A DNA stretch of 35,997 bases from Ruminococcus sp. (GTDB lineage: Bacteria; Bacillota; Clostridia; Oscillospirales; Ruminococcaceae), in NCBI GenBank assembly GCA_017634275.1, contig JAGBNQ010000056.1, positions 1-35,997 on the forward strand, in the 5' to 3' direction. The notes below the pieces were generated by a model, which was not told where the DNA came from, searched no databases, and saw only the letters and a list, made by a program, of their open reading frames with translations. Made by a program: the position numbers and the translations under genes. Shown here piece by piece: positions 13,083 through 20,437 of this stretch (the stretch's first letter is position 1; the number at the start of each line of letters is the position of its first letter).

Positions 13083-13904
13083 TCAGTTGTTTGGGAAAGT
13101 GAAATTGAGGTAAAGGTTGCTAAGCTGCTGACCCCATATAGCGGCTATCGCAACACCTACCGAAAGCCAAGGGCCAAAGGCAAATACCGAATCACCGCTT
13201 TTGTGCTTTTGGATAATTCCTGCAACAGAGCCCGTGATGAGTGCGATGAAAAGCGCTATAAGCGCACCGCCCACACCTAAGAAAGCACCGCAGGCAGCCA
13301 TGAGGTAAACATCACCTCTGCCCATTGCTTTGCCTTTTGATAAAAGCTCAATGAGCAGCAGCGGAACGCTTACGGCAAACAGGCCTATAAGCTGAGATAC
13401 CCACGGCTTGTCGCTTACATTGCCGCTCATAGTGGTTATGTAAGGGTAGTCGGAGAAGAAAAACTCCAAAACCGCAAGAATGGCTATGAAAATAACAACG
13501 TAGTTTGAGATGAGCTGAGTGTCCCAGTCCATAAAGAAAACAACTATGAGGGCTGAGAATAAAAGACAAACGAGGATCGCGTGCAGGGGGTACTGCATTA
13601 CGTCATAGTAGAAGAACACCGCTAAATAAAGCAAGGCGTTGAGTGTTTCAACTACCGTATAGCGCGGGGAAATAGGTGCGCCGCAGCTGCGGCATTTGCC
13701 TTTTAAAATACACCAGCTGACTATCGGGATAAGATCGCGCCTTTTGATCTCTTCACCGCAGGTCATGCAGTGTGAATTCCGTTTTGTAAGTGATTCTTCC
13801 TTTGGCAGACGGTAGATGCAGACATTTAAAAAGCTGCCGATGCTTGCGCCAAACAAAAATACAAAGGTATAGATCACTATATAATATGGTAAAAGTTCAG
13901 CCAT
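13083..13904 (-). CDS. pilD: Type IV prepilin peptidase / N-methyltransferase
   Basis: This GxGD-family membrane aspartyl peptidase cleaves class III signals and N-methylates mature pilins. It has 273 residues. The N-terminal domain carries the zinc-type tetracysteine motif C46-x2-C49 and C71-x2-C74, marking the bifunctional form. The catalytic aspartates are in DWD (126-128) and in the GRGD motif (D198). About six to eight hydrophobic segments fill the rest. AAGGAGG stands before the ATG. It is transcribed against the surrounding pilus genes, and its promoter region is shared with pilB. Its substrates are probably the three prepilins encoded just upstream of it in the window. The call is secure. 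Confidence 0.95.
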   Translation of the reverse strand: MAELLPYYIVIYTFVFLFGASIGSFLNVCIYRLPKEESLTKRNSHCMTCGEEIKRRDLIPIVSWCILKGKCRSCGAPISPRYTVVETLNALLYLAVFFYYDVMQYPLHAILVCLLFSALIVVFFMDWDTQLISNYVVIFIAILAVLEFFFSDYPYITTMSGNVSDKPWVSQLIGLFAVSVPLLLIELLSKGKAMGRGDVYLMAACGAFLGVGGALIALFIALITGSVAGIIQKHKSGDSVFAFGPWLSVGVAIAAIWGQQLSNLYLNFTFPNN

Positions 13905-13927
13905 ATCAAGTCCTCCTTAAATAACAT

Positions 13928-13955
13928 TACATATATTTTAACATATTTTTGTAAA
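13928..13955 (-). promoter_or_regulatory. Possible pilD promoter, overlapping the pilB promoter
   Basis: On the minus strand, TTTACA (13955-13950) and TATGTA (13933-13928) are 16 bp apart. The -35 overlaps the -35 of the pilB promoter on the other strand, so a single bound regulator could affect both genes. The -10 is imperfect. Confidence 0.35.
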
Positions 13956-13976
13956 CTTATCAAGTGGTTTTATAAA
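13949..13976 (+). promoter_or_regulatory. Probable pilB-pilT promoter
   Basis: TTGTAA (13949-13954) and TATAAA (13971-13976) are 16 bp apart. The expected start of transcription near 13983 coincides with the first base of the leader pseudoknot. Confidence 0.5.
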
Positions 13977-13982
13977 TTTATA

Positions 13983-14040
13983 GAGGGTGTGCGCAGCAAC
14001 ACTCTCGGGGTCATGACCCTTTGCAAAATCCAATGCTGCG
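13983..14040 (+). promoter_or_regulatory. Candidate H-type pseudoknot in the pilB leader (possible riboswitch or protein-binding RNA)
   Basis: Stem 1 pairs 13983-13990 with 13999-14006 (8 bp, one G-U). Seven of its eight loop bases, CGCAGCA (13992-13998), are perfectly complementary to TGCTGCG (14034-14040), giving stem 2. Loop 1 is one base, there is no base between the stems, and loop 3 is 27 nt with its own small hairpin GGGT/ACCC (14008-14011/14016-14019) and an A-rich tail. This is textbook H-type geometry. The stem 2 strand ends right before AGAAGGAG (14041-14048), the ribosome binding site. It does not match any riboswitch consensus I can recall; a nested alternative fold using only stem 2 is possible. 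Confidence 0.5.
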
Positions 14041-14058
14041 AGAAGGAGTAATCTACCC

Positions 14059-15741
14059 ATGAGAAATGGACCTATCGGACAGTATCTTGTTGAGAAAAAG
14101 CTCATTACTGAGGAACAGCTCCAGCAGGTTCTTGCCAAGCAGAAGGAATCAAAGGGTAAGCTTTTCGGTGACGTAATCACCGAGATGCGCTTTATTTCGG
14201 AGGAGGACTTTGCAAAGGTTCTCGCTGAAAGACTTAACGTTCCTTACTGCGATCTTGAAAACACCACGCTTTTGCCTGATGTTGTCAAGAAGATCCCTGA
14301 GGCTACAGCAAGAAAATATACGGTAATCGCCGTAAGCAAGATGGGCAAGCGAATGACCGTCGCTACCAATGACCCTATCAACTTCTATGTGTTTGAGGAC
14401 TTAAGAGTTTTAACGGGCTGTAATATCAACCCCGTTTTGGCAACTAAATCCTCAATATCCAAGGCAATTGGTAAGATGTATTCTGAGGGTCAGGCAAGCG
14501 CCGTTGTTCAGGAGGCTGAGCAGGAGTTTGTTGATGAAGAGGAAGAGCTTGACCTTAACAATATCGACCTCTCCGCTGAGAGGATCGATTCCGCGCCTAT
14601 CGTTAAGCTTGCAACGGCTATCGTTGAAAACGCTTACCGTCAGGACTGCTCCGATATTCATATCGAGCCGTTTAAGAACCAGACTAAGATCAGAATAAGA
14701 ATTAACTCTGACCTTGTTGAGATGATGACTCTTTCACCTCAGCTCCATAACGCGCTCGTTACTCGTTATAAGATCTTAAGCGGAATGAACATCGCTGAAA
14801 AGCGTATACCGCAGGACGGCCGTATGTCGCAGGTAATAGACGGCACTACCGTTGACCTTCGTGTATCCAACCTTCCGATGGTTTACGGTGAAAAGGTCGT
14901 TCTCCGTATTCTTGCAGGCGACAGCGCTGTCAGAAAAATTCAGGATCTTGGTATGACTGACTATAACTACCAGAGATTCCTTGACTGCCTTAAGGTTCCG
15001 CAGGGCGTTGTACTTGTTACCGGACCTACAGGTTCAGGTAAATCTACTACCCTTTACGCGGCTCTCGGTGAAAAGGCTAAGCCTAACCTTAACGTTATCA
15101 CCGTTGAGGACCCTGTAGAAAAGAAGATAGATAATATCAACCAGTGTCAGATAAACGAAAAAGCAGGCATGACCTTTGATGCGGCTCTTCGTTCTATCCT
15201 TCGTCAGGACCCTGACATCATAATGGTCGGTGAGATGCGTGACTCGGAGACTGCATCTATCGCTATCCGTGCGGCTATCACGGGTCACTTGGTTCTTTCG
15301 ACACTTCATACAAATGACGCATCGTCAACCGTAACAAGACTTGTTGATATGGGCGTTGAGCCTTACATGGTCGCAACATCTCTTATCGGTATCGTTGCTC
15401 AGCGTCTTACTAAGGTGCTTTGCCCCGATTGTAAGAAGAGCAGAATGTCAACAGATCAGGATAATGAGCTTATGGGTATTGACCACTCGATAGAGGTATT
15501 TGACCCTGTCGGCTGCCCTAAGTGCAATAATATGGGCTATAGGGGCAGAACGGCTATCCATGAGATACTTCTGAATACCCCCGAGATGATGGAGCTTATC
15601 ACCGCAGGCGCAAGAGCATCTGAGATTTCTGTTCTTGCTAAAAAGCAGGGAATGCTGCTGCTTCGTGATAACGTTTCTACGCTCGTTCAGCAGGGCAAGA
15701 CATCGATAGCTGAGCTTGTGCGTGTTACCTACGCGGTGTAA
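14059..15741 (+). CDS. pilB: Type IV pilus extension ATPase PilB
   Basis: Hexameric GspE-family ATPase that powers pilus extension from the cytoplasmic side of PilC; 560 residues. It has an N-terminal MshEN/T2SSE-N domain (about 1-150) and an acidic linker near 160-180. Walker A GPTGSGKST lies at 322-330, followed by an Asp box, a Walker B region (DPDIIMVGEMRD) and a His box (TGHLVLSTLHTND). The zinc-binding cysteines are C455, C458, C486 and C489. The MshEN arginine usually needed for c-di-GMP appears as Pro5 (PIGQYLV), so ligand binding is doubtful. AGAAGGAG lies 10 bases before the ATG and follows the leader pseudoknot. pilT follows after 84 bp. The call is secure. Confidence 0.96.
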   Translation: MRNGPIGQYLVEKKLITEEQLQQVLAKQKESKGKLFGDVITEMRFISEEDFAKVLAERLNVPYCDLENTTLLPDVVKKIPEATARKYTVIAVSKMGKRMTVATNDPINFYVFEDLRVLTGCNINPVLATKSSISKAIGKMYSEGQASAVVQEAEQEFVDEEEELDLNNIDLSAERIDSAPIVKLATAIVENAYRQDCSDIHIEPFKNQTKIRIRINSDLVEMMTLSPQLHNALVTRYKILSGMNIAEKRIPQDGRMSQVIDGTTVDLRVSNLPMVYGEKVVLRILAGDSAVRKIQDLGMTDYNYQRFLDCLKVPQGVVLVTGPTGSGKSTTLYAALGEKAKPNLNVITVEDPVEKKIDNINQCQINEKAGMTFDAALRSILRQDPDIIMVGEMRDSETASIAIRAAITGHLVLSTLHTNDASSTVTRLVDMGVEPYMVATSLIGIVAQRLTKVLCPDCKKSRMSTDQDNELMGIDHSIEVFDPVGCPKCNNMGYRGRTAIHEILLNTPEMMELITAGARASEISVLAKKQGMLLLRDNVSTLVQQGKTSIAELVRVTYAV

Positions 15742-20197: not shown

Positions 20198-20437
20198 ATA
20201 TTGTTAAAAGCTGTGACGGAGAATGCTTTAAGATAAGCGGTAAAGAGAAAAGGCGGCAGGTGAAAGCCTTTGCGTGAGTCTTTAAGCTGCTGCTCCCGAG
20301 TATTTGTATGAAAATGCAAGCGTAACCCCTGCGTTAAAGGGCAACGAGTGACGGTGGGGTTTCCTGCCGTAATTTGGGTGGTAACACGGAAATTTTAGGC
20401 TTTCGTCCCATTTTGTGGGGCGGAGCTTTTTTGTTTT
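20198..20437 (+). promoter_or_regulatory. T-box leader, alanine specific, with terminator
   Basis: A tRNA-sensing leader. Stem I base GGAG/CTCC (20218-20221/20293-20296) encloses an internal loop whose 3' side is TGCTG (20288-20292). The specifier there reads GCT (20289-20291), an alanine codon. Above it GCTTTAAGA pairs with TCTTTAAGC. The T-box core GGGTGGTAACACGG (about 20374-20388) contains TGGT, which pairs with the tRNA-Ala end ACCA. The terminator (about 20397-20437) pairs GTCCCA with TGGGGC and ends in TTTTTT. Uncharged tRNA-Ala should favour the antiterminator and turn alaS on. Confidence 0.92.

Follow-up and report, generated by a model that had tools for sequence, protein, structure and literature searches.

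Why should the gene for a pilus extension motor carry a small RNA pseudoknot directly against its ribosome-binding site, and what would read it? The window analysed here is the whole 35,997-nucleotide stretch of contig JAGBNQ010000056.1 from Ruminococcus sp. (assembly GCA_017634275.1). In it pilB, which encodes the extension ATPase with MshEN and T2SSE domains (Pfam), occupies 14059..15741 on the + strand, with its ATG at 14059 and a prepilin peptidase gene divergent to it. We consider, with a probability of roughly 60%, that the pilB leader holds a cis-acting translational-control module, in which an H-type pseudoknot lies immediately against the Shine-Dalgarno sequence. What the analysis shows is that two stems can form, that they covary in relatives, that they keep a fixed position at the ribosome-binding site, and that the design recurs before unrelated genes. 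As its reader we favour either the 30S ribosome or a protein that binds RNA.

As read from the letters, positions 13983-14040 are able to form an H-type pseudoknot beside the pilB ribosome-binding site, all features lying on the + strand. The first stem, P1, joins a 5' strand at 13983..13990 (GAGGGTGT) to a 3' strand at 13999..14006 (ACACTCTC) through eight pairs, including one G-U; its pairing is kept in relatives while its sequence varies. Between these strands lie a one-nucleotide loop 1 (G, 13991..13991) and the 5' strand of the second stem, P2 (CGCAGCA, 13992..13998), which forms seven Watson-Crick pairs with its 3' strand (TGCTGCG, 14034..14040). The Shine-Dalgarno sequence, AGAAGGAG (14041..14048), follows directly 3' of P2. 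An earlier note on this DNA, made from the letters, let P2 end at the first base of AGAAGGAG; it actually ends one base before. The note gave the length of loop 3 (14007-14033, 27 nucleotides) correctly but missed a nested hairpin at 14007..14020 (five pairs, loop CATG). Because loop 3 contains this hairpin, the shape in the window is a three-stem pseudoknot; at the same place, relatives in the genus (L007-L010 and L034) have different hairpins by eye. The remaining part of loop 3 is GCAAAATCCAA (14023..14033), and GCNAA recurs in the loop 3 of other leaders. Free-duplex energies are -10.0 kcal/mol for P1 and -10.9 kcal/mol for P2, and the nested folding energy of the leader is unremarkable (z score -0.57).

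The arrangement exceeds chance once many leaders are considered. We scored leaders with a sequence-blind pseudoknot finder at a strict pass mark of 27. The window pilB leader scores 36.8, against a maximum of 23.1 in its 20 shuffles, and it alone exceeds 27 among the 26 window leaders scored. No single score settles the matter, since individual shuffles of two other window leaders rose to 35.9 and 28.8; the proof comes from the whole set. Among distinct pilB leaders 22 of 87 pass, where shuffles average 0.1, which together with the stems and the one-nucleotide loop confirms the H-type pseudoknot that the note had placed at this ribosome-binding site. The pilB upstream regions numbered 116, comprising 25 of the 26 loci of a first set, 90 of the 103 places of a second set (matches in 101 of 297 family genomes, the 13 lowest-scoring places left out) and the window. 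Removal of 20 regions in which the start codon and the match disagreed in position, and of eight duplicates, left 88; two of the dropped regions (L063 and L052) do carry a knot. By finder and by eye, 31 of the 88 leaders have a knot, 29 of them through the finder and two (L039 and L070, where the finder registered the knot wrongly) through a covariance model. These pilB knots span eight genera by label (g1, g3, g36, g66, g72, g91, g93 and g118), some loci being unlabelled. Finder matches in seven further pilB leaders (L092, L117, L013, L018, L079, L098 and L043) were spurious by eye and were not counted.

Both stems were then judged by whether their arms match their own partners. Among 27 clear pilB cases, which hold 25 different inner P1 arms, P1 arms are 95% paired with their own partner against 43% with the arms of other species, and for P2 the corresponding values are 100% and 54%. 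MAFFT alignments A1 and A2, in which arms were misplaced in some rows, were set aside for A3 and A5; the latter was fitted to a model and holds 30 leaders (19 of pilB and 11 of other genes) from outside the window genus. In A5, P2 was not modelled as paired and is nevertheless 99.4% paired, with two-sided changes at three of six pairs; P1 has two-sided changes at all eight pairs, and sliding the partners lowers pairing from 87.1% to 40-51%. On these aligned sequences both stems of the H-type pseudoknot covary, within the circularities set out below; covariation in both stems is what the earlier note had proposed to look for in pilB homologues.

What stays fairly constant is the order P2, AGA, short spacer, Shine-Dalgarno sequence; AGA comes directly after P2 in most leaders. 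Loop 1 is one nucleotide but not constant, the sequence of P1 is unconstrained, and loop 3 ranges from 8 to 52 nucleotides. The pilB P2 types are CGCAGC(A) in g1 and g36, CCGCAG in g66, g72 and g118, CCGTGA in g3, CCGCAA in L024, and a flipped type, GCGGC/GCCGC, in L028 and L052. GCNAA occurs in 16 of 41 loops, against a shuffle mean of 2.6 with relatives counted as independent. It is very improbable that the stems play no part in RNA and are either DNA-level inverted repeats, such as the binding site of a regulator, or complementary by chance. At the DNA level each stem is indeed an inverted repeat, and both adjoin the promoter-like site of the divergent prepilin peptidase gene, yet P1 pairing is kept though its sequence is unconserved, the distance between the P2 arms varies widely, the position tracks the ribosome-binding site, and the chance expectation is 0.1 of 87. 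The promoter-like site itself lies at 13935-13963 (- strand; 10/12, TG before the second hexamer), and a similar A+T-rich TTACAAG stretch is visible by eye upstream of pilB in relatives too.

Might the knot act through the 5' end of the transcript? Structured 5' ends stabilise messenger RNAs (mRNAs) in Firmicutes, and a knot near the transcript start could block 5'-end-dependent decay without itself controlling translation, a role that would suit unrelated genes. A promoter scan of 13850-14150 returned no + strand site; by eye, a weak -10-like TATAAA at 13971-13976 would start the RNA near P1 and so would fit the start that the earlier note had predicted at 13983. Even so, we regard a pure stabiliser as a rather poor account: the fixed place of the knot is against the Shine-Dalgarno sequence and not the transcript start, by eye, the gap between the upstream A+T-rich stretch and P1 is far larger in L012 than in the window, and a plain hairpin would do equally well, yet P2 is kept.

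The same design recurs upstream of unrelated genes in related genomes, usually as CCGCNN/NNGCGG, then AGA, then a Shine-Dalgarno sequence. A covariance model built from pilB leaders (R1) and run over 61 relatives gave matches before other genes, and the gene list was extended by a pattern scan of 297 family genomes (71 places; reversed control, 18) and by a second model, R2, run on 16 genomes. Genes were listed where a knot and a start codon were seen, with Pfam support. They comprise purL-like genes (L124, L219, L220 and L333, with Pfam support on L124 and L333), hisS (L330), a primary sigma factor gene (L323), a cysteine desulfurase gene (L126), glnA with a different P2, CAGCCG/CGGCTG (L335), and sepF (L227, and by N-terminal likeness L228, L229, L222 and L134). 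Knots also stand before the starts of genes for short asparagine/glutamine-rich proteins (L279, L221 and L224) and for small membrane proteins (L123, L160 and L325). Weaker cases, in which P1 is short or imperfect, are L134 among the sepF loci, L327 and L328 among the small membrane proteins, an S1-domain protein gene (L324), divIVA (L326), lon (L329) and ybaB (L336). Among other-gene leaders 16 of 408 exceed 27 (shuffle mean 4.4), but these loci were largely fetched by the motif, so this gives no genome-wide rate.

An unconditioned test ignored the upstream strand: GCGGAGAANGGAG occurs 69 times in 118 family genomes, every site was taken, and 39 of them lie before a gene start. A perfect upstream complement of at least six bases accompanies 11 of these 39, compared with 5.5% when arms are exchanged and 2 of the 30 other sites. 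At 11 of 39, the motif alone does not imply a knot; yet complements are in excess at gene starts. Model matches with no gene start after them or no knot (L125, L127, L132, L135, L136, L137, L331, L332, L334 and L337) were not counted, L127 being a knotless R1 match elsewhere in genome G000, and the borderline matches L128, L130 and L131 were not relied on. Before a Lon-like gene (L290), GCGGAGAATGGAG is covered by a plain hairpin, CTCCGC/GCGGAG, and not by a knot (by eye). The proteins of L123, L160, L325, L327 and L328 each combine a single membrane stretch at the N-terminus with an acidic tail and are possibly an unnamed family; a Pfam scan of those from L123, L325, L327 and L328 gave no match.

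This breadth bears directly on a riboswitch, in which the pseudoknot would be an aptamer for a small molecule (cyclic di-GMP (c-di-GMP), another nucleotide, glutamine or a purine) whose bound form hinders the ribosome. The MshEN fold binds c-di-GMP in some proteins, and PilB has such a domain; the knot stands in glnA and purL-like leaders, loop 3 shows GCNAA repeatedly, and most leaders have AGA after P2. Small pseudoknot riboswitches do abut or include the Shine-Dalgarno sequence, as in the preQ1 classes described in passages of PMC11625349. The genes nevertheless span pili, division, proteolysis, transcription, transfer RNA charging and metabolism with no shared pathway, and this list is hard to square with a single small-molecule ligand. 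Loop 1 is a single inconstant nucleotide, P1 is unconstrained, loop 3 is widely variable, and no Rfam family matches; we consider a riboswitch unlikely. The earlier note had tied the element to the pilus motor and to second-messenger control. Because the same design precedes unrelated genes without a common pathway, that tie is not supported, and a pilus or c-di-GMP riboswitch is argued against.

How, then, would a translational-control module work? The stretch of mRNA covered by the 30S subunit includes bases just upstream of the Shine-Dalgarno sequence, where P2 ends. If folded inside this stretch, the knot would have to dock and melt, or be kept folded, before the ribosome could position the start codon, and knot stability could in this way set the level of pilB translation. 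A shared reader, whether the ribosome, an S1-type protein or another RNA-binding protein, might tune several genes by recognising loop 3 together with the end of P2 and the AGA that follows. We lean towards attenuation, relievable, as the direction of the effect. The 16S 3' end string GCTGGATCACCTCCTTTCT was found in three of 12 genomes (G001, of the same genus, G233 and G281); the other nine may lack assembled ribosomal RNA or differ at the 16S 3' end. AGAAAGGAGG would be the complement of that end, which places the end of P2 at the possible start of the longest Shine-Dalgarno helix; in many leaders, however, the sequence is AGAATGGAG, with a mismatch, or the spacer is longer, and the abutment of P2 on the longest possible helix is suggestive only. 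We tentatively extend this to a lineage-typical initiation module, convergently reused, which either the 30S subunit (at the mRNA exit, with P2 stacked on the Shine-Dalgarno helix) or one global RNA-binding protein reads, placing unrelated growth, division and metabolic genes under common control; such an extension is possible but doubtful. If the module reading is true, the S1-domain protein of L324, whose gene possibly bears a knot, would be one candidate for the reader, acting on its own gene as well.

Several results weigh against translational control by this knot. It is absent from 57 of the 88 pilB leaders and hence dispensable; the earlier note had asked whether homologues lose the P2 complement, and the complement is kept where the knot exists, while these 57 have no knot. 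Knotless pilB leaders include those of two g66 genomes, G230 and G163 (L037, identical to L014, and L043), and the purL-like leaders L263 and L297 have the motif but no knot. A strong P1 accompanies only six of the 39 motif-bearing gene starts (against none of the 30 other sites). P2 pairing in the 31-of-88 set and in the 27-case test is partly circular, the finder requiring P2, and alignment A5 was fitted to P1, which favours P1. Finally, P2 is G+C-rich with little variety, and its constancy could partly reflect sequence recognition without a knot. As side observations by eye, the knotless leaders L013, L014, L017 and L018 have CCGCAC or CCACAC near GTGAGGAG, perhaps a reduced hairpin, and genus g78 pilB leaders (L055-L058) have no such knot but resemble one another in a different structure, two nested repeats (AATACC/GGTATCC and AAAAGTC/GACTTTT) around a GGAGG.

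The class seems to be concentrated in the family, not confined there, and missing from many of its genera. The strict pattern gave three matches in 394 genomes of the order (two outside the family), equal to the three of the reversed control. A looser model found good knots outside the family before an epimerase gene (L133; P2 CCGCCGC/GCGGCGG) and before a SipL/LysM gene (L129; P2 CCGCAC/GTGCGG), and two exact patterns had no match in phage contigs. A genus pattern matched none of seven genomes, but it demanded bases absent from the genus variant; R2 likewise gave no match in G005 and G006, even at their pilB knot, and does not recognise that variant.

The leader was finally compared with known families and systems. 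Against Rfam 15 at gathering score, the whole window yields a T-box alone, at 20204-20413, and nothing at the pilB leader. Searched to an E value of 10, the pilB leader region reaches 19.9 bits with HSUR (gathering score 50), and the best match in 12 relatives is sRNA41 in L063, at 31.2 bits (gathering score 45). No Rfam family, including preQ1, SAM-II, GEMM-I, c-di-GMP-II and the S15 leaders, matches the pseudoknot at gathering score. The note had likewise found no match to the GEMM-I, c-di-GMP-II, preQ1 or THF consensus. A covarying knot that abuts a ribosome-binding site and has no Rfam match is most naturally read as a cis-acting element. The T-box leader (+ strand; 95.3 bits, cut-off 93) overlaps the mechanical start of an open reading frame at 20374, and because of this overlap that gene probably starts later. 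CsrA was rejected as a common reader: it is encoded in seven of 18 genomes searched and absent from G071, G233, G285, G148 and G270, all of which have the pilB knot.

To our knowledge, regulatory pseudoknots at ribosome-binding sites are single-gene cases or ligand classes. Judged by titles and abstract openings, with supplements, outside preprints and most subscription journals beyond this coverage, no publication treats the present element, and the passages seen of PMC11109978 and PMC8632094 do not mention it. As far as that coverage goes the pseudoknot class is undescribed, and translational control is its most likely role. A class whose stems covary, which has no Rfam entry and which recurs upstream of unrelated genes in bacteria of the rumen and gut, points towards a common reader acting on translation. 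The passages of PMC3858243 leave unanswered how low-GC Gram-positive ribosomes translate structured mRNAs, and the class is relevant to that question.

The preQ1 classes are compact pseudoknots adjoining or including the Shine-Dalgarno sequence (passages of PMC11625349); class I is H-type, class II occludes the Shine-Dalgarno sequence, and class III comes partly from Ruminococcaceae. The present knot differs from them in its one-nucleotide loop 1, its unconstrained P1 and its lack of an Rfam match, and no queuosine gene was seen among its downstream genes. The standby pseudoknot of E. coli tisB, needed for translation according to PMC7708055, is likewise a leader pseudoknot, although it serves one toxin gene. 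In the E. coli rpsO leader, the site of S15 autoregulation, a pseudoknot at the ribosome-binding site (Shine-Dalgarno GGAG) docks on the platform of the 30S subunit and has to be melted there before the start codon can be positioned, as passages of PMC3858243 describe. In the pilB leader the knot also lies at the ribosome-binding site, but upstream of the Shine-Dalgarno sequence; rpsO is one gene, whereas the present element precedes several unrelated ones. The window gene is pilB and rpsO is not among the downstream genes identified, which sets the element apart from the rpsO/S15 leaders. We favour rpsO as the nearest printed mechanism: by analogy, the pilB pseudoknot would work like that leader without being a member of its family.
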